Assembly: GCA_036504095.1 (NCBI GenBank)
Contig: DASXVS010000019.1
Coordinates: forward strand, 1-64,000
Reading direction: 5' to 3'
Source: Armatimonadota bacterium
GTDB taxonomy: Bacteria > Armatimonadota > DTGP01 > JAKQQT01
Length of the DNA: 64,000 bases
Shown here: piece after piece, positions 4,501 through 44,316 of the stretch
Layout: every line of letters starts with the position of its first letter
How positions within the stretch are numbered: the stretch's first letter is position 1
Notes under the pieces: model-generated
Seen by the model: the letters and a program-made list of their open reading frames with translations, nothing else
Told to the model about the DNA's origin: nothing
Database searches by the model: none
Translations under genes and position numbers: made by a program

Positions 4501-5406
4501 ATGCGGCTGAGCGTCCTCATCGTCAATTGGAATACGCGGGATGACCTCGAACGGTGCCTGACCAGTTCCGCGTTCCGAGTTTCGAGTCCCGAGTTCCTGG
4601 TTCCTGGTTCGGAGCCCGACTCGGAACTAGGAACTAGAAACTCGGAACTGATAGTCGTCGATAACGCAAGTACCGACGGGAGCGTGGAGATGCTCGCCCG
4701 GAGTTTCCCGAACGTCACAGTGCTGGCGCTCGACACGAATCTGGGTTACGCCCGAGGGAACAATCTGGCCGCCGAAGCCGCCAATTCTGATTGGCTGCTA
4801 TTTTTGAATCCGGACACGGTGGTGCCGGCGGATACCCCTGCCGCGTTGATCCGGTTTCTGGAGGGGCACCCGCGCGCGGCCATCGCTGCGCCGAGGCTGG
4901 TTTCTAAGGACGGCAGCACGCAGGCATCGATACGCGGGATGCCAACGCCGGTGGCGATGTTCGCGGCGTGGCTGCATCTGGACCGTCTCTTCTCGCGCGC
5001 AGAGGCGTTCACGTCGTACCGCCTGCCGGGATTCGATTATGACCTGACCCAACAGGCGCCGCAACCCATGGCGAGCGCGTGGATGGTGCGGCGCGCGGCA
5101 TGGGAGGACGTCGGACCGTTCGATCCGGCGTTTCCGTTGTTCTTTAACGACGTGGACTGGTGCCTGCGCGCACTGGACAAGGGCTGGGAAGTTTGGTACG
5201 TAGCAGATACCCGCGTTGAGCATCGGGGCGGCGCCAGCACCAGCCAGGTGAAGCCGCGCGCGACGTGGGAATCGCACCGGGCGATGGCGGCTTTCTACCG
5301 AAAGCACTATTCCAAACGCCTCGGGCCGCTGATGTTGGCGATTTGCGTGGCCGTCATCCGGGCGGTTGGAGCCGTCCGATATCTCTGGTACAGATATTCG
5401 CGGTAG
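4501..5406 (+). CDS. Family 2 glycosyltransferase (rhamnosyltransferase-like) with an in-frame repeat insertion
   Basis: This is a GT-A fold glycosyltransferase that would transfer a nucleotide-activated sugar to a growing surface polysaccharide at the inner membrane. The order is typical: LSVLIVNWNTRDDLERC at the N-terminus, VVDNASTDGS, the nucleotide-binding FLNPDTVV, and FFNDVDWCLRA as the likely catalytic segment, with a hydrophobic C-terminus. The loop between DDLERC and IVVDNAST is about fifteen residues longer than in the paralogue at 5566. It is encoded by a palindromic 7-base repeat array (4565-4648), 84 bases long, so the frame is kept. The stop codon lies inside a large inverted repeat. 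Whether the enzyme is active with this loop is not known. Confidence 0.88.
   Translation: MRLSVLIVNWNTRDDLERCLTSSAFRVSSPEFLVPGSEPDSELGTRNSELIVVDNASTDGSVEMLARSFPNVTVLALDTNLGYARGNNLAAEAANSDWLLFLNPDTVVPADTPAALIRFLEGHPRAAIAAPRLVSKDGSTQASIRGMPTPVAMFAAWLHLDRLFSRAEAFTSYRLPGFDYDLTQQAPQPMASAWMVRRAAWEDVGPFDPAFPLFFNDVDWCLRALDKGWEVWYVADTRVEHRGGASTSQVKPRATWESHRAMAAFYRKHYSKRLGPLMLAICVAVIRAVGAVRYLWYRYSR
4565..4648 (+). repeat. Palindromic heptamer array inside a glycosyltransferase gene
   Basis: Twelve consecutive 7-base units occupy 84 bases. The left part has GTTCCGA-type units (GTTCCGC, GTTCCGA, GTTTCGA, GTCCCGA, GTTCCTG twice, GTTCGGA). The right part has the reverse complement, TCGGAAC, and variants TAGGAAC and TAGAAAC. 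The array is therefore an imperfect inverted repeat made of tandem heptamers. Because 84 is divisible by three the reading frame of the gene is preserved, and no unit creates a stop in frame. Confidence 0.9.
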
Positions 5407-5469
5407 GTCGGGCCTTCGTGCCCGACGAAGGTTGGGATGCTCGGTGTCGGGCACGGAGGCCCGACCTAC
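5403..5469. repeat. 24-bp inverted repeat between two glycosyltransferase genes
   Basis: Arms 5403-5426 and 5446-5469 are reverse complements with one mismatch, around a 19-base spacer. The core of the arm is GTAGGTCGGGCC followed by GTGCCCGAC after a short variable part. The left arm begins one base before the stop codon of the upstream gene, so the element starts exactly where coding ends. In RNA it would form a very stable hairpin and could act as a terminator or processing site. Confidence 0.9.
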
Positions 5470-5557
5470 TGACTACTGACTACTGCCTACTGCCTACTGT
5501 CTACTGACTACTGTCTACTGCCTACTGTCTACTGACTACTGCCTACTGTCTACTGAC
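5467..5557 (+). repeat. Tandem heptamer array, 13 units of TACTGNC
   Basis: Thirteen uninterrupted copies of TACTGAC, TACTGCC or TACTGTC fill 91 bases. They run on from the right arm of the inverted repeat and end 8 bases before the ATG at 5566. Only the sixth base varies. There are no unique spacers, so it is not a CRISPR array. It occupies the place where the ribosome binding site of the next gene should be. Confidence 0.95.
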
Positions 5558-5565
5558 TATCAACA

Positions 5566-6489
5566 ATGAACCTGTCTGTCATCATCTTGAACTGGAACGC
5601 GCGAGAGTGGCTTGAGCGCAGCGTGGGCAGCGCGCTCGCCCAGGACATCGGCGCGCGCACGTTCGAGGTGATCCTTGTGGACAACGCGAGTACGGATGGC
5701 AGCGTTCAATTCGCCCAGGACTCGTTCCCGCAGCTCACGATCATCGCCCTTGACGAGAATCTGGGATTCGCGGCGGGAAACAACGTCGGCATGGCCGCCG
5801 CGCGTGGCGATGTGGTTCTGTTGCTGAACCCGGATACGATTTCCCACCCGGGCGCTTTCGCGGCGATTCTGGATTTCATGGAGGCGCACCCGGCCTGCGG
5901 AATCGCGGGCCCGAAACTCCTGAACAAGGACGGGACGCTCCAGTACTCCTGCCGCCATTTTGCCAGGCTTGAGGCGGGGTTCTTTCGAAACACGCCGCTG
6001 GGTCGACTGTTTCCGCGGAACCGCGCGACGCGCGACTACCTGATGAAGGATGCGCCCCACGATGAACCGATGGTCGTGGACTGGGTGAGCGGCGCGGCAA
6101 TGGCGATCAGGCGGGAGGTGATCGACGCGGTAGGAACGCTCGACGAGGAATTCTACATGTATGTGGAAGATGTCGATCTGTGCTACCGGGCCAAGCAGGC
6201 TGGCTGGCAGACGTGGTATGCGCCGGCCGGGGTAATCACGCACGCGATCGCCCAGAGCAGCGACAAGAACCCCCGCCCCATGATCATCGCCTTCCATAAG
6301 AGCATGTTCCGGTTCTTCCGCAAGCACTATCTCGGCACGCTTTATCCCGGCTGGCTCACTCCCATCGTGGCGGTCGGGCTGACAGTACGGGTGGGCCTTG
6401 TGATCGCTCTGGGCTACTGGAAGGACCTTACCGGGAAGGGACCCGAAAAGGCATCGATTCCGCCGGAGCAGCAAGAGGATCGGAAATGA
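5566..6489 (+). CDS. Family 2 glycosyltransferase
   Basis: A second GT2 enzyme of 307 residues, paralogous to the gene at 4501. It has LSVIILNWNAREWLERS, LVDNASTDGS, LLNPDTIS and the catalytic-type segment YVEDVDLCYRA, then a C-terminal hydrophobic stretch near residues 265-285 that may sit on the membrane. The likely role is sugar transfer in lipid-linked polysaccharide synthesis. There is no Shine-Dalgarno sequence; a heptamer array takes its place, so expression may depend on that array or on read-through from upstream. Its end overlaps the start of the O-antigen ligase-like gene by four bases (ATGA), which points to translational coupling. Confidence 0.92.
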   Translation: MNLSVIILNWNAREWLERSVGSALAQDIGARTFEVILVDNASTDGSVQFAQDSFPQLTIIALDENLGFAAGNNVGMAAARGDVVLLLNPDTISHPGAFAAILDFMEAHPACGIAGPKLLNKDGTLQYSCRHFARLEAGFFRNTPLGRLFPRNRATRDYLMKDAPHDEPMVVDWVSGAAMAIRREVIDAVGTLDEEFYMYVEDVDLCYRAKQAGWQTWYAPAGVITHAIAQSSDKNPRPMIIAFHKSMFRFFRKHYLGTLYPGWLTPIVAVGLTVRVGLVIALGYWKDLTGKGPEKASIPPEQQEDRK

Positions 6490-18124: not shown

Positions 18125-18886
18125 TCAGAATGGCTGCGTCGGGGTCAGGAACTCCCTTGCGGGGCAGATCGCGTGCTTGCCTTCCTGCGTGAGAAACCAG
18201 TCGTGGTTCTTCCAGGCGGAATGGCCGTCGCCAAAGACGCAGTTGCAGCCACCGTTATGGCGTGAGGCCAGCTCGTTCCAGACTTCGGTCCAAGTGGTAC
18301 CCTCAGGCTCGATGTACGGGGCGCTGGAGTCGCTCCTGGGGGTCTTTACGAAATCCTGACACTCGGCGACCAGGATCACGCCGGAAGGGGTCTTCCACTT
18401 CGAGATCCGGTGGGAAGACGGGATATAGGACTGGCTGCTGTCCCCGAAGTTCTCCAGAAACTCGACGTTCAGAGTGTAGTGCCCCCAGATGTAAGGGTAT
18501 CCCGCCTGGTTGGTCCAGTAATCTCCGGCCGGGTACGAGCTGCTGACGCGGGGGAAGGCGCCGGCCGCGAAAGTCTTCCTGTACGGTTTCGGCGCCCGGG
18601 ACGCTGGGCATCCAAAGACGTCGCCGCTCTTGACGTAGCTGTCCAGGGGGCGGTGCCAATCCCACCAGTTCCACATCACCTGCTCTTCGTTGTCGTCGGC
18701 GTACATCATCAGCGCCCGCCCGATCTGATTCGTGTTGCTGAGACACGCCGTTGACAGCGCCCTCGAACGCGCTCTGGCAAAGACGGGAAAGAGGATGGCG
18801 GCCAGGATTGCGATGATCGCAATTACGACGAGAAGCTCGATCAAGGTGAATCCGCCGACGATTGGATCACGGTTCCGCTTCGGCAT
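18125..18886 (-). CDS. Prepilin-type N-terminal cleavage/methylation protein (pseudopilin)
   Basis: The N-terminus has the type IV prepilin leader and hydrophobic helix, [19 protein letters not shown], with cleavage expected after the Gly before [16 protein letters not shown] follows and a soluble domain contains [21 protein letters not shown] and a late FGDGHSAW motif, the pattern of the DUF1559-like pseudopilins abundant in Armatimonadota. A strong AAAGGAGATCC site precedes ATG 18886. It is 50 bases downstream of the ABC permease gene on the same strand. Its role in a pilus, secretion system or surface layer cannot be told. Confidence 0.9.
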
Positions 18887-18936: not shown

Positions 18937-19764
18937 TCAGGCGTTTAAACCCGTGACCGCCACGCCCTCGATGAACGTCTTCTGGGCGAAGAGGAACAAC
19001 AGGACGGGCGGAATGGTCACCAGCGTGGCGGCGGCCATCAGGGCGCTCCAGTCCGCGCCGTGTCTGCCCAGAAACGCGGTCAGTCCGAGCGCCAGCGTGT
19101 ATTGCCGTTCATCGTGCAGGTAGACGAGGGGCCCAAGGTAGTCGGTCCACGTTCCCATAAAGGAAAAGAGCGCTACCGTGGCGAGCGCCGGCCTCGCCAG
19201 CGGCAGGATCACGCGTGCCAGGATCCCGAGTTCCGAGCAGCCGTCGATGCGCGCGGCGTCGCTGAGTTCCTTCGGGATGGTGAGGAAGAACTGCCGGAGC
19301 AGGAAGATGCTGAAGGCGCTTCCGAAAAATGCCGGGACGATGAGCGGCTTGAACGTGCCGGTCCAGTGGAGCCAGCGGAAGATGAGGAACACAGGGAGCA
19401 TGGTTGCCTGCCCGGGCAGCATCAGCGTTGCCAGCATCACCACAAACAGCAGATCGCGCCCCTTCCACTCCAGCCGGGCGAATCCGTACGCCGGGAGCGA
19501 GCAGGAGATCACGACGCCGATCATCGTGGTGACGCACAGGAACAGGGTGTTGGCGGTGTAGTGTAGAAACGGGAAGGCCTGCGTGGCGCGCGAGTAGTTT
19601 CCCCATACCGGCGGCGTCGGAAACCAGATCGGCGGGAATGAAAACGTCTGCGCGTCCGATTTCAGCGACGTACTGACCATCCAGAAAAATGGTCCCAGGA
19701 ACGCCAAACACACGACGGATAGAAACGCGTATCGGGCCGCGATTCCTGTCACCTTTACACGCAT
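18937..19764 (-). CDS. Carbohydrate ABC transporter permease, MalG-like
   Basis: A 275-residue inner-membrane permease with six predicted membrane segments. The EAA loop that contacts the ATPase is seen at ELSDAARIDGCSELGI, followed by ILPLARPALATVAL. FLGPFFWMVSTSLKS at the N-terminus is typical of the MalG/LacG branch. It pairs with the permease at 20287 to form the channel for a sugar or oligosaccharide. The two are normally adjacent, but here a four-helix-bundle gene lies between them. No binding protein or ATPase gene is in the window. Confidence 0.93.
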   Translation of the reverse strand: MRVKVTGIAARYAFLSVVCLAFLGPFFWMVSTSLKSDAQTFSFPPIWFPTPPVWGNYSRATQAFPFLHYTANTLFLCVTTMIGVVISCSLPAYGFARLEWKGRDLLFVVMLATLMLPGQATMLPVFLIFRWLHWTGTFKPLIVPAFFGSAFSIFLLRQFFLTIPKELSDAARIDGCSELGILARVILPLARPALATVALFSFMGTWTDYLGPLVYLHDERQYTLALGLTAFLGRHGADWSALMAAATLVTIPPVLLFLFAQKTFIEGVAVTGLNA

Positions 19765-19777
19765 CGGCGTGCCCTCT

Positions 19778-19809
19778 GGAAATGAGGAAACGAAGAAATG
19801 GGGAAATGC
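19778..19809 (+). repeat. Left octamer arm, four units
   Basis: Four contiguous 8-base units share the core GGAAAYG. They begin 14 bases upstream of the start codon of the MalG-like gene on the minus strand, so they also occupy its translation-initiation region. The orientation is opposite to the arm at 20252. Confidence 0.8.
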
Positions 19810-19830
19810 GGGCGAAGGGATGGTAGTCTC

Positions 19831-20241
19831 TTACGCATCATAGTTTGCCTGCTCTTCGCGCACCTCAGTCAGCCATTTTCGCCGTTCTGTGATCAGAGAG
19901 TTAATCCAGCGTCTGGTAGAATCAAGTTCCTCCCGCATCTGCAGCGAGTCCTCATTGCTCATCAAGTTACGCGCTTCGGCCCTTCGGAGCCAATAGGACG
20001 TTTCCCTTAGGGACGCTCGGGAGATATAGCAGTAGTTCAGATTGTCTTTGTGATGGAATCGCGCGTCCCCTTCACAGAGATTCGCCCCAATAGAATCCGC
20101 CGCGCGGACAAGTTGCTTACCAACCGTATCGCGTGGAAGCGGACCCCATCGTAGCACGTTGGTCCAGATCCGGTCGATGAGGCGTTCAAGAGATCGAAAC
20201 ATCTCCATGTCGTCCACGCTCGTCCAAGAGACATCGCTCAT
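19831..20241 (-). CDS. Four-helix-bundle protein (23S rRNA intervening-sequence protein / S23 family)
   Basis: The 136-residue product fits the four-helix-bundle family originally found in 23S rRNA intervening sequences. The family pattern is visible in PLPRDTVGKQLVRAADSIGANLCEGDARFHHKD, here split as QLVRAADSIGANLCEGDA and NYCYISRASLRETSYWL, a region rich in helix-forming residues. The molecular role of these proteins is unknown; a relative (Avd) assists diversity-generating retroelements. It sits between two sugar permease genes and is enclosed by opposed octamer arrays, which marks it as probable cargo of an insertion. Codon use looks like that of its neighbours except for a lower GC content. 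Confidence 0.85.
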   Translation of the reverse strand: MSDVSWTSVDDMEMFRSLERLIDRIWTNVLRWGPLPRDTVGKQLVRAADSIGANLCEGDARFHHKDNLNYCYISRASLRETSYWLRRAEARNLMSNEDSLQMREELDSTRRWINSLITERRKWLTEVREEQANYDA

Positions 20242-20251
20242 ATCACGCCCT

Positions 20252-20275
20252 CATTTCATCATTTCCTTGTTCCAT
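20252..20275 (-). repeat. Right octamer arm, three units
   Basis: Three 8-base units (CATTTCAT, CATTTCCT, TGTTCCAT) lie 11 bases after the stop codon of the MalF-like gene, reading on its strand. They are the reverse complement type of the units at 19778 and match the right arms at 17609 and 43211. Confidence 0.7.
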
Positions 20276-20286
20276 CGCATCCGAGC

Positions 20287-21213
20287 TCATCCGTAGTGCA
20301 CCCATTTCTTGCCGCTCCACATAACCAAGAGGCTCAGCGACAGGGTGATGGCGAACAGGATCCAGGCCATGGCGCACGCGTAGCCCATCTTGAAGTAGAC
20401 GAACGCGTTGTTGAACAGGTAGTAGGCGTAATACGTGGTGGACATCTGAGGGCCGCCCTTGGTCATAACCTGGGCGTTGGTGAAATACTGGAACGTCCCG
20501 ATAACGCCCATAATCAACTGGAAAAACAACACCGGGGAGATCATCGGGATGGTGACGTGGCGGAAGCGGCCGAGCGCGGAAGCGCCGTCGAGCGTAGCGG
20601 CTTCGTAGAGGTGCTTGGGCACCCCCTGAAGCGCCGCCAGGGTGATGATCATCCCCCCGCCAACGCTCCACACGTCCATGATGATGAGCGAGGGTTTCGA
20701 CCACCGCGGGTCAACGAGCCAGTTGAGTTTGTGAATGTGGCCCGCGGCCAAAACGGAATTTGCCAGCCCGTATTGCGGGTTGAAGATCCACATCCACAGC
20801 ATGGCGGAGGCCACGGCGGGGACGACGCTGGGCAGATATAGCATCGCGCGGAACGCGGCCATGCCTTTCAACCTTTGATTCAGCAGTGTTGCCAGCGCGA
20901 GCCCCATGCCGATCCCCAAAGGCAGCTCAAGAAACATGAATACCGTGTTGAAAACGGCGTAGCGCCAGAAATACTCGTCGCCAGTCAGCAGCTGGCGATA
21001 GTTCTCAAAGCCTACGTAGCGCGGGGGATGGAGGACGGGGAAATCCGTGAGGCTGTACCTGAACGATGCGATGACAGGGTAGAGAGTGAAAATGAGGAAT
21101 CCGAGCAGCCACGGGCTGACGAATGCGAGGCCCATCAGCAGGCGTCTGCGGGCTGCCCTGCGCGCAGTGGGGCTGATGATCCGGTTGGAGGCTTGCGGGG
21201 TCGCTGATTGCAT
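20287..21213 (-). CDS. Carbohydrate ABC transporter permease, MalF-like
   Basis: A 308-residue inner-membrane permease with six predicted membrane segments, beginning LLMGLAFVSPWLLGFLIFTL and with FRYSLTDFPVLHPPRYVGFENY in the first periplasmic loop, both typical of the MalF/UgpA branch. The EAA loop is LYEAATLDGASALGRF, followed by VTIPMISPVL. It would be the first permease of a sugar importer whose second permease is at 18937. No substrate-binding protein precedes it, which is unusual because that gene normally leads the operon. An inverted repeat overlaps the start codon. Confidence 0.93.
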   Translation of the reverse strand: MQSATPQASNRIISPTARRAARRRLLMGLAFVSPWLLGFLIFTLYPVIASFRYSLTDFPVLHPPRYVGFENYRQLLTGDEYFWRYAVFNTVFMFLELPLGIGMGLALATLLNQRLKGMAAFRAMLYLPSVVPAVASAMLWMWIFNPQYGLANSVLAAGHIHKLNWLVDPRWSKPSLIIMDVWSVGGGMIITLAALQGVPKHLYEAATLDGASALGRFRHVTIPMISPVLFFQLIMGVIGTFQYFTNAQVMTKGGPQMSTTYYAYYLFNNAFVYFKMGYACAMAWILFAITLSLSLLVMWSGKKWVHYG

Positions 21214-43161: not shown

Positions 43162-43165
43162 CGGA

Positions 43166-43234
43166 GGGGAAACGAGGAAATGGGGAAATGAAGAACCTGG
43201 GGCGTTTCCCCATGTCCCCATTTCCTCATTTCCC
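43166..43234. repeat. Octamer palindrome between convergent genes
   Basis: Arms 43167-43190 and 43211-43234 are reverse complements with two mismatches around a 20-base spacer. Both are built of 8-base units (GGAAACGA, GGAAATGG, GGAAATGA on the left; CATGTCCC, CATTTCCT, CATTTCCC on the right). The element starts four bases after one stop codon and ends two bases before the other, so it fills the gap between the GHL10 gene and the UroD-like gene. It would end transcription from both sides. Confidence 0.9.
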
Positions 43235-43236
43235 TT

Positions 43237-44316
43237 CTAGCGGTACCAGCCGAACTCGTTCACGGCGTCCACGGCGGCCACAATGTTCTCCCAGGGGACT
43301 TCCGGTTCGATCATGTGCGTTGGCGCCAACAGCAGTCCGCCGCCCACGCCAACCGTCTCCATGCGCAGCTTGACCTCGGCGCGAACATCCTCCGGAGTCC
43401 CGAACGGCAGCGTGCTCTGCGTGCCGATGGTGCCCCAGAAGGCCAGGTCTCGCCCGAATTCACGCTTGAGGCAAGCGGGGTCCATGCACTCGCTCTGGAT
43501 GGGATTCAGGATGTCGAGACCGATCTCGATGAGGTCTGGGACGATGGCGGTCGCGTTTCCGTCGGTGTGGTAGAAAACCAGGACGTCCGGGCGCGCCGCC
43601 TTCGCGGCAGCGATGATGCGAGCCAGGCGCGGTTTCAGCCAGCGACGCCACATCGGAACGCTCATCATCATCCCGTGCTGGGAAGCCACGTCATCTCCGA
43701 GGCGGATCACATCAACGCCGAGCGCCGAATACCGGGCAGCTTGTATCTCGCGTTTCGCCGTAATCCGATCCAGGAGCGTTTCCGCGAAGCCGGGGTTCTC
43801 AACGAAATCCAGCAGCAGCAGTTCCATTGAGCGCATATACCAGGCAATCTCGAAGATAGAACACTCTGAAGACGCCATCGCCGCATGGCCTTCACCCTGG
43901 ATCGACGCGATGCGGCCGGGGAGGTCTGCGTATCGGTAGTCTGCCTCGACGTCGGGCAGGGGATACGATGCGGCATCGGCATCGCTGCTCAGTTTCATCA
44001 TCGGGTGAACGAACGCCTGGAGGTGGGCGTGTTCCGGCGCGTCGCTCCGGGTCTTCAGATATCCGATGCCCCACTCATCCCACGTCGTTCCCGGAGGCGA
44101 ATCGGTGTGGTACTTGGCGTGGTCAAGCGGGTGGGAAGTCCTAAGGATTCCCACTGGACGCGTGTCACAGCCGAAATAGGCCGCGGCATCCTCTTGGCCG
44201 GTCCGCGTGCGGAACTCCTCATATTTCTGCGGCGTGAGGCTGATGCCGATCTCGTGCGGCACGCGATCCGGCGCCTGGCGCCGCATCGCCGTCAGTACTC
44301 GCTCTCTGCTCGTCAT
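43237..44316 (-). CDS. UroD-like (MtaA/CmuA superfamily) protein, H-x-D type
   Basis: ATG 44316 opens [24 protein letters not shown], the usual family start, and overlaps the glpK stop by ATGA. The 359-residue product shows [16 protein letters not shown], then [29 protein letters not shown], in which the usual metal pair H-x-C is H-T-D, and [22 protein letters not shown] near the end. It lies in one operon behind glpD and glpK. Family members handle methyl groups on corrinoid or other carriers; the link to glycerol is unexplained. Confidence 0.87.

Follow-up and report, generated by a model that had tools for sequence, protein, structure and literature searches.

In the window, i.e. the whole stretch of 64,000 nucleotides from an Armatimonadota genome that was analysed here, a malF-like and a malG-like permease gene lie on the minus strand with a gap of 522 nt between them. 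The gap holds a gene of the four-helix-bundle family (hereafter FHB, the family of 23S-rRNA-intervening-sequence or S23p proteins), enclosed by arrays of 8-nt units in inverted orientation (Table 1). The arms end 13 and 15 nt away from the permease genes, neither of which is touched, and this confirms what a first-pass annotation had described, namely an FHB gene with inverted octamer arms that splits a malF-like/malG-like pair. Apart from the FHB gene, no gene can be recognised in the element, for which Pfam gives PF05635 alone. Elsewhere in the window, the region 18125-18886 has a prepilin-like N-terminus, a feature that would fit an Armatimonadota host.

Table 1. Features of the FHB locus and gene-less arrays in the window.
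Feature	Position	Strand	Description
malG-like permease gene	18937-19764	-	Profile matches; same orientation as the FHB gene
Outer arm beside malG, downstream of the FHB gene	19778-19814	+	Tandem 8-mers, unit GGAAATGA
FHB gene, 136 aa	19831-20241	-	PF05635 / TIGR02436, divergent subfamily
Outer arm beside malF, upstream of the FHB gene	20246-20271	-	Inverted 8-mers, unit GGAAATGA
malF-like permease gene	20287-21213	-	Profile matches; same orientation as the FHB gene
Gene-less heptamer hairpin AGTTCCN	4563-4652	+	In frame in a GT2-like glycosyltransferase ORF (4501-5406)
One-sided CTACTGA array, 13 units	5466-5559	+	Unit of FHB element L004
Gene-less hairpin, 8-nt unit of the window FHB element	43163-43240		Between convergent stop codons

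The FHB protein scores above the curated cut-offs of both family profiles, PF05635 (E-value 3.7e-19; 69.4 bits versus 33.8) and TIGR02436 (8.4e-21; 74.2 bits versus 24), and its AlphaFold model consists of four helices (pLDDT 93), which together place it in the S23p family. In solved relatives the protein forms a pentameric ring, and we know of no catalytic domain in FHB proteins. A fold search with the model gave 2GSC (XCC0516) as the top PDB match, as well as 2RLD; the Avd protein of diversity-generating retroelements (DGRs) was a more distant match, with a TM-score of about 0.7 and with 4DWL and 8UB7 among the matches. Six residues (Q43, R46, S50, N54, E57 and E80 in the numbering of the window protein) are invariant in an alignment of 19 diverse members and correspond to the GxxRxxxSxxxNxxE motif of the family (PMC3936711).

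The arm beside malG reads GGAAATGA GGAAACGA AGAAATGG GGAAATGC GGGCG, and the reverse complement of the arm beside malF reads AACAAGGAAATGATGAAATGAGGGCG. A repeat search recovered an inverted repeat of 16 nt with 88% complementarity (19778-19793/20251-20266), and TRF reported a period of 8 with 3.9 copies at 19778. The RNA fold of the whole element is no better than those of shuffled sequences (z -0.84), because the coding part dominates it. Arms were scored by aligning the upstream flank to the reverse complement of the downstream flank, and on this scale the window pair reaches 27, a value equalled by one out of 134 swapped pairs. Taken alone, this is a modest case, short and imperfect, which draws its strength from the family pattern. 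At 65 loci from this genome and its phylum, own flank pairs have a median score of 40, as against a mean of 17.5 (sd 4.2, 99th percentile 28) for swapped pairs; that percentile is exceeded at 54 of the 65 loci, and their farther flanks never score above 26.

A profile search identified eight PF05635 genes in this genome (G000, 4.68 Mb), all of which have inverted 7/8-nt arms and no two of which share a unit: GGGTCTA, GGGCTGA, AGCATCC, AGTAGTC, GGAAGAT, GGAAATGA (the window), GAACGAT and CATTTGA. A single universal repeat unit can thus be ruled out, the units being locus-specific. The apparent hosts of the insertions include serC|serA, carA|, pyrR|pyrB, malF|malG and 23S rRNA; malF and malG were named by profile and the others by reading the sequence. 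Three of the eight genes (L004, L006 and L008) lie in apparent sugar-ABC permease operons. The copy with GGAAGAT arms (L005, in G000:C77) is located within 23S rRNA, at a position that appears to be helix 45, and is a classical intervening sequence (IVS) alongside seven FHB copies outside rRNA in the same genome.

The same anatomy was found well beyond this phylum. We sampled 80 FHB loci from named genomes across the bacteria (Chloroflexota, Bacteroidota, Planctomycetota, Pseudomonadota, Cyanobacteriota, Bacillota, Acidobacteriota, Spirochaetota and CPR), and in the 77 that could be scored the median for own pairs was 41, versus 18 for swapped ones; arms were also present at all seven FHB loci read on cyanobacterial plasmids. 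Among 118 clear-armed loci the best arm period was 7 in 82, 8 in 20 and 14 in nine, and the 5' arm of the sense strand contained more G than C in 111 (p = 3e-25). With the longest nearby ORFs taken as neighbours, 80 loci have the FHB gene in the same direction as both of them and 12 in the opposite direction (p = 2e-13), and in 74 of 108 loci the arm starts at most 12 nt from the stop codon that ends the upstream sense ORF. Armed FHB insertions are therefore a bacteria-wide class, whose arms are conserved in period, inversion and strand bias rather than in sequence. The expectation that other FHB copies would be flanked by similar octamer arms held for the arms themselves, which are present at most of 142 loci, but not for the octamer, since the units are 7- or 8-mers that differ from locus to locus. 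Carriage of the element by phages was considered and rejected, as a search of 50,697 phage records gave no match.

Comparison of related genomes reveals both occupied and empty sites. In Mesorhizobium, an FHB gene lies between nuoC and nuoD in about 23 of 81 genomes, and others have clean empty sites, for example ...CAGTAA.ATGGCTGAAACC or ...CAGTAG.GGCGACCC.ATGG, where the occupied form reads ...CAGTGAATGGTGAATAG...FHB...CACTATTCGCCAAG.GGCGACCC.ATGG. Three types of arm are seen among the occupied copies (GTGAATG, GTAGTGA and AGCGAATA), and FHB proteins of different types are 56-73% identical. Unless the site was hit repeatedly, this implies that both arms are rewritten in concert around a gene that is retained. 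That each unit is copied from its target site is no more than a suggestion, prompted for example by CAGTGAATGG in an empty site and the unit GTGAATG. Among 35 Brucella genomes, a glutamine-synthetase-like site contains FHB in 13 and also in G173, where occupancy was deduced from a contig that begins inside the arm; where this site is cleanly empty, the genes are about 25 nt apart. The insertion is thus polymorphic between species at both sites, which supports the earlier view of the window element as a gene-carrying palindromic insertion that lacks a transposase.

Repeats of the same kind also occur where there is no FHB gene. The window itself contains a gene-less hairpin made of the octamer of its own FHB element, which fits between the ends of two ORFs (43161 on the plus and 43237 on the minus strand) and has an RNA fold z-score of -6.2. 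The AGTTCCN hairpin (fold z -4.75) is protein-coding, and the neighbouring ORF 5566-6489 has ordinary sequence at the corresponding stretch; none of the eight resident FHB genes was found to have this unit. In 386 kb of the genome, mostly FHB-carrying contigs, there are 41 arrays of period 7 and five of period 8, a few of which are FHB arms, while other periods from 5 to 13 yielded 0-2; in 760 kb from five FHB-less relatives there were no period-7/8 arrays. With the window counted in, there are 43 period-7 arrays, and in 21 of them the unit is exactly that of the arms of a resident FHB gene; for shuffled units the figure is 2%. The array units AGTTCCG, AGGAGGC and TGAGAAT match none of the eight FHB genes found here. 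The AGTTCCG/AACTCGG arrays (L297, L301, L302, L306 and L308, and also present in the window) thus have an orphan unit, which perhaps stems from an FHB gene that was lost or not assembled. In four FHB-bearing genomes of the phylum, no strict arrays were found in the roughly 80-100 kb sampled.

In the 35 Brucella genomes we searched for three tandem units with up to 2 mismatches. Arrays of AGGGGAGT were present in all 14 genomes with FHB at the glutamine-synthetase-like site and in none of the 21 others, and arrays of AGGGCAGT in 13 of the 14 (G147 being the exception), with 1-2 matches in three others; a reversed-pattern control gave no match in any of the 35 genomes. Many of these arrays are inverted pairs about a core of 40-60 nt with the inner ends TATGTT...AACATAC, and the FHB element of this genus likewise has AACATAC at its right end. 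Some hairpins are nested as array-TATGTT-array-TATGTT (L266, L267, L268 and L318-L320), which suggests that one element was inserted into another or its end. Trees of two flanking regions show five and four label changes, of which at least three and two, respectively, are forced by supported branches, and in both trees the FHB-less G146, G164 and G178, nearly devoid of arrays, are nested in the FHB clade. The association of FHB with arrays in Brucella thus comprises a modest number of independent changes, at least 2-3 of which are forced by well-supported branches. At one site between convergent genes (L254, L255, L259, L264 and L314-L343) the hairpin replaces the normal intrinsic terminator and supplies a stop codon, its unit being AGGGGAGT or AGGGCAGT depending on the species; accordingly, not every hairpin has a clean empty counterpart. 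In Mesorhizobium, each of the nine genomes with a GTGAATG-type FHB has 13-85 matches to GTGAATG, while the unit is missing from roughly half of the genomes overall; at least 10 matches were also seen in about 15 genomes without the type-1 insertion, FHB having been checked at nuoC-nuoD only.

Several known systems resemble the window element in part. Intervening sequences of 23S rRNA with an S23p ORF occur in Salmonella, Leptospira and Coxiella and are excised by RNase III (PMC4990558); like them, the window element has a PF05635 protein, a sense ORF and complementary ends that can form a stem. Unlike them, it lies between malF and malG, and most FHB copies here lie between protein genes, whereas IVSs have been described in rRNA only. 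In addition, the arms here are 7/8-mer arrays with locus-specific units whose cognate gene-less hairpins are dispersed. The REP/RAYT systems or REPtrons (PMC2817692, PMC8266576, PMC3116915), in which the RAYT gene is always flanked by inverted REPs and its presence tracks the abundance of cognate REPs (PMC2817692), likewise combine a single gene within inverted repeats with dispersed gene-less copies that correlate with the gene. However, RAYTs are Y1/HuH transposases, a fold to which FHB is unrelated, and REPs have a conserved sequence with a GTAG-type tag, whereas the FHB repeats are tandem arrays conserved in period, with many units per genome and a different one at every FHB locus here. 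Classical IS elements and MITEs differ from the window element in having terminal inverted repeats of fixed sequence and a transposase, in place of which we see locus-specific arrays and no transposase. The fold is homologous to that of Avd, but the malF-FHB-malG interval has neither a reverse transcriptase (RT) nor a TR/VR pair, as a DGR would.

Dispersed heptamers themselves have been reported before. Xanthomonas has G-rich heptameric repeats of about four units whose origin is unexplained, and which also occur in Nostoc; in X. campestris, 70 inverted heptamer pairs lie close to or overlap stop codons (PMC4692102). TAACTGA repeats are known from Beggiatoaceae (PMC4679880) and heptamer satellites from bacteria (PMC6749651). 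All these repeats were described without a link to FHB genes, and in the open-access literature searched we found no paper that joins the two. The solved FHB protein XCC0516 (2GSC) also comes from X. campestris, a host of heptamer repeats. FHB genes have been noted as rRNA insertions (PMC4990558), near DGRs (PMC10053308), in CPR rRNA (PMC11270868) and at CRISPR loci (PMC3936711). The first-pass annotation, according to which the family is known only as rRNA passengers or Avd-type helpers, therefore understates the existing annotations, which include an FHB gene between cmr2 and cmr3 (PMC3936711).

In Brucella and Mesorhizobium the dN/dS of FHB is about 0.06 and 0.10, respectively, with dS near saturation, and such low values imply that the protein is maintained under strong purifying selection. 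Since FHB-carrying genomes are strewn with gene-less copies of their own repeats, the FHB gene is probably what causes the unexplained bacterial heptamers, and would be their long-missing cause in many bacteria. For the window, the explanation that we hold to be fairly probable is that it contains one copy of a REP/RAYT-like mobile element, in which FHB disperses or maintains hairpins of conserved period.

One may also consider that FHB is a passenger. The hairpins would then be moved by an HuH/Y1 transposase of the RAYT type or by replication-fork repair, occasionally capturing an FHB gene, and the arms would do no more than excise the insert from RNA. This would agree with a fold that has no known catalytic site, with the RNase III excision known for 23S copies (PMC4990558) and with gene-less hairpins outnumbering gene-bearing ones. 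Nevertheless, we consider it rather unlikely, because genomes that lack FHB are array-free (AGGGGAGT in 0 of 21 Brucella genomes; no arrays in the 760 kb of phylum relatives), the array units match those of resident FHB genes, and the FHB genes are strongly conserved. A different scenario dispenses with mobility altogether: arrays would arise by local slippage and template switching at gene ends and be selected as RNA stems, and FHB would be acquired separately, sharing only the site preference. Copy numbers do vary widely, one orthologous Brucella site has different units in different species, and both arms change together. However, the identity of dispersed units to FHB arms of the same genome (21 of 43 versus 2%), the shared inner motif TATGTT...AACATAC in Brucella, the nested elements and the genome-wide absence of arrays where FHB is absent require that the repeats have spread, and immobility is already disfavoured and, in our judgement, improbable.

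A role of FHB as an Avd-like partner of an RT that copies hairpin RNA could be suggested by its structural relationship to the Avd of DGRs (4DWL, 8UB7), by the sense bias, which hints at an RNA stage, and by three RT genes in this genome. Yet RVT_1 matches are absent from five array-rich Brucella genomes with an FHB site (G147, G152, G168, G172 and G173), by which dependence on RT is rejected, and in Brucella RT genes are about as frequent with FHB (9 of 14) as without it (10 of 21); such retro-dispersal appears very improbable. That the arms are coincidental low-complexity sequence or ordinary intergenic repeats could be entertained for the window pair, which is short (16 nt, 88%) and matched by one of the 134 swapped pairs, but at the level of the family chance is refuted by the swapped pairs, farther flanks, reversed patterns and shuffles, and its probability is negligible.

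If the element is indeed REP/RAYT-like, its behaviour could be pictured as follows. The arms would form a long stem in the transcript, and an RNase III-type cut at this stem, by analogy with the 23S rRNA copies, would set free the FHB message as well as the cistrons on either side, which would explain why the element is tolerated within operons. We infer that the FHB protein binds its own array in folded, single-stranded form, presumably the G-rich 5' arm, and that it promotes the copying of its hairpin and the insertion of the copy elsewhere by host enzymes; dispersed gene-less hairpins of matching unit would be the outcome. Slippage and hairpin-templated correction may alter the length of the arrays and the sequence of the unit, so that period, inversion and strand bias would be kept while the sequence drifts. 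We see about an even chance that FHB proteins, more generally, actively drive a novel class of bacterial mobile elements, in which the ends are recognised through period, inversion and strand composition and not through sequence, and which seed genomes with hairpins of tandem 7/8-mers; this would explain the heptamers of cyanobacteria, Xanthomonas and others, and the rRNA IVSs would be copies that landed in rRNA.

A widespread family of "hypothetical" proteins thereby gains a testable role, and the intervening sequences of rRNA become linked to insertions within ordinary operons. One cause is offered for two separate puzzles, the S23p proteins and the dispersed heptamer repeats, and where an FHB gene has been annotated in an unexpected place, as between cmr3 and cmr2, it would represent an insertion rather than a member of a pathway. 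If true, a mobile element that is defined by the period of its repeats rather than by the sequence of its ends would be a new principle.
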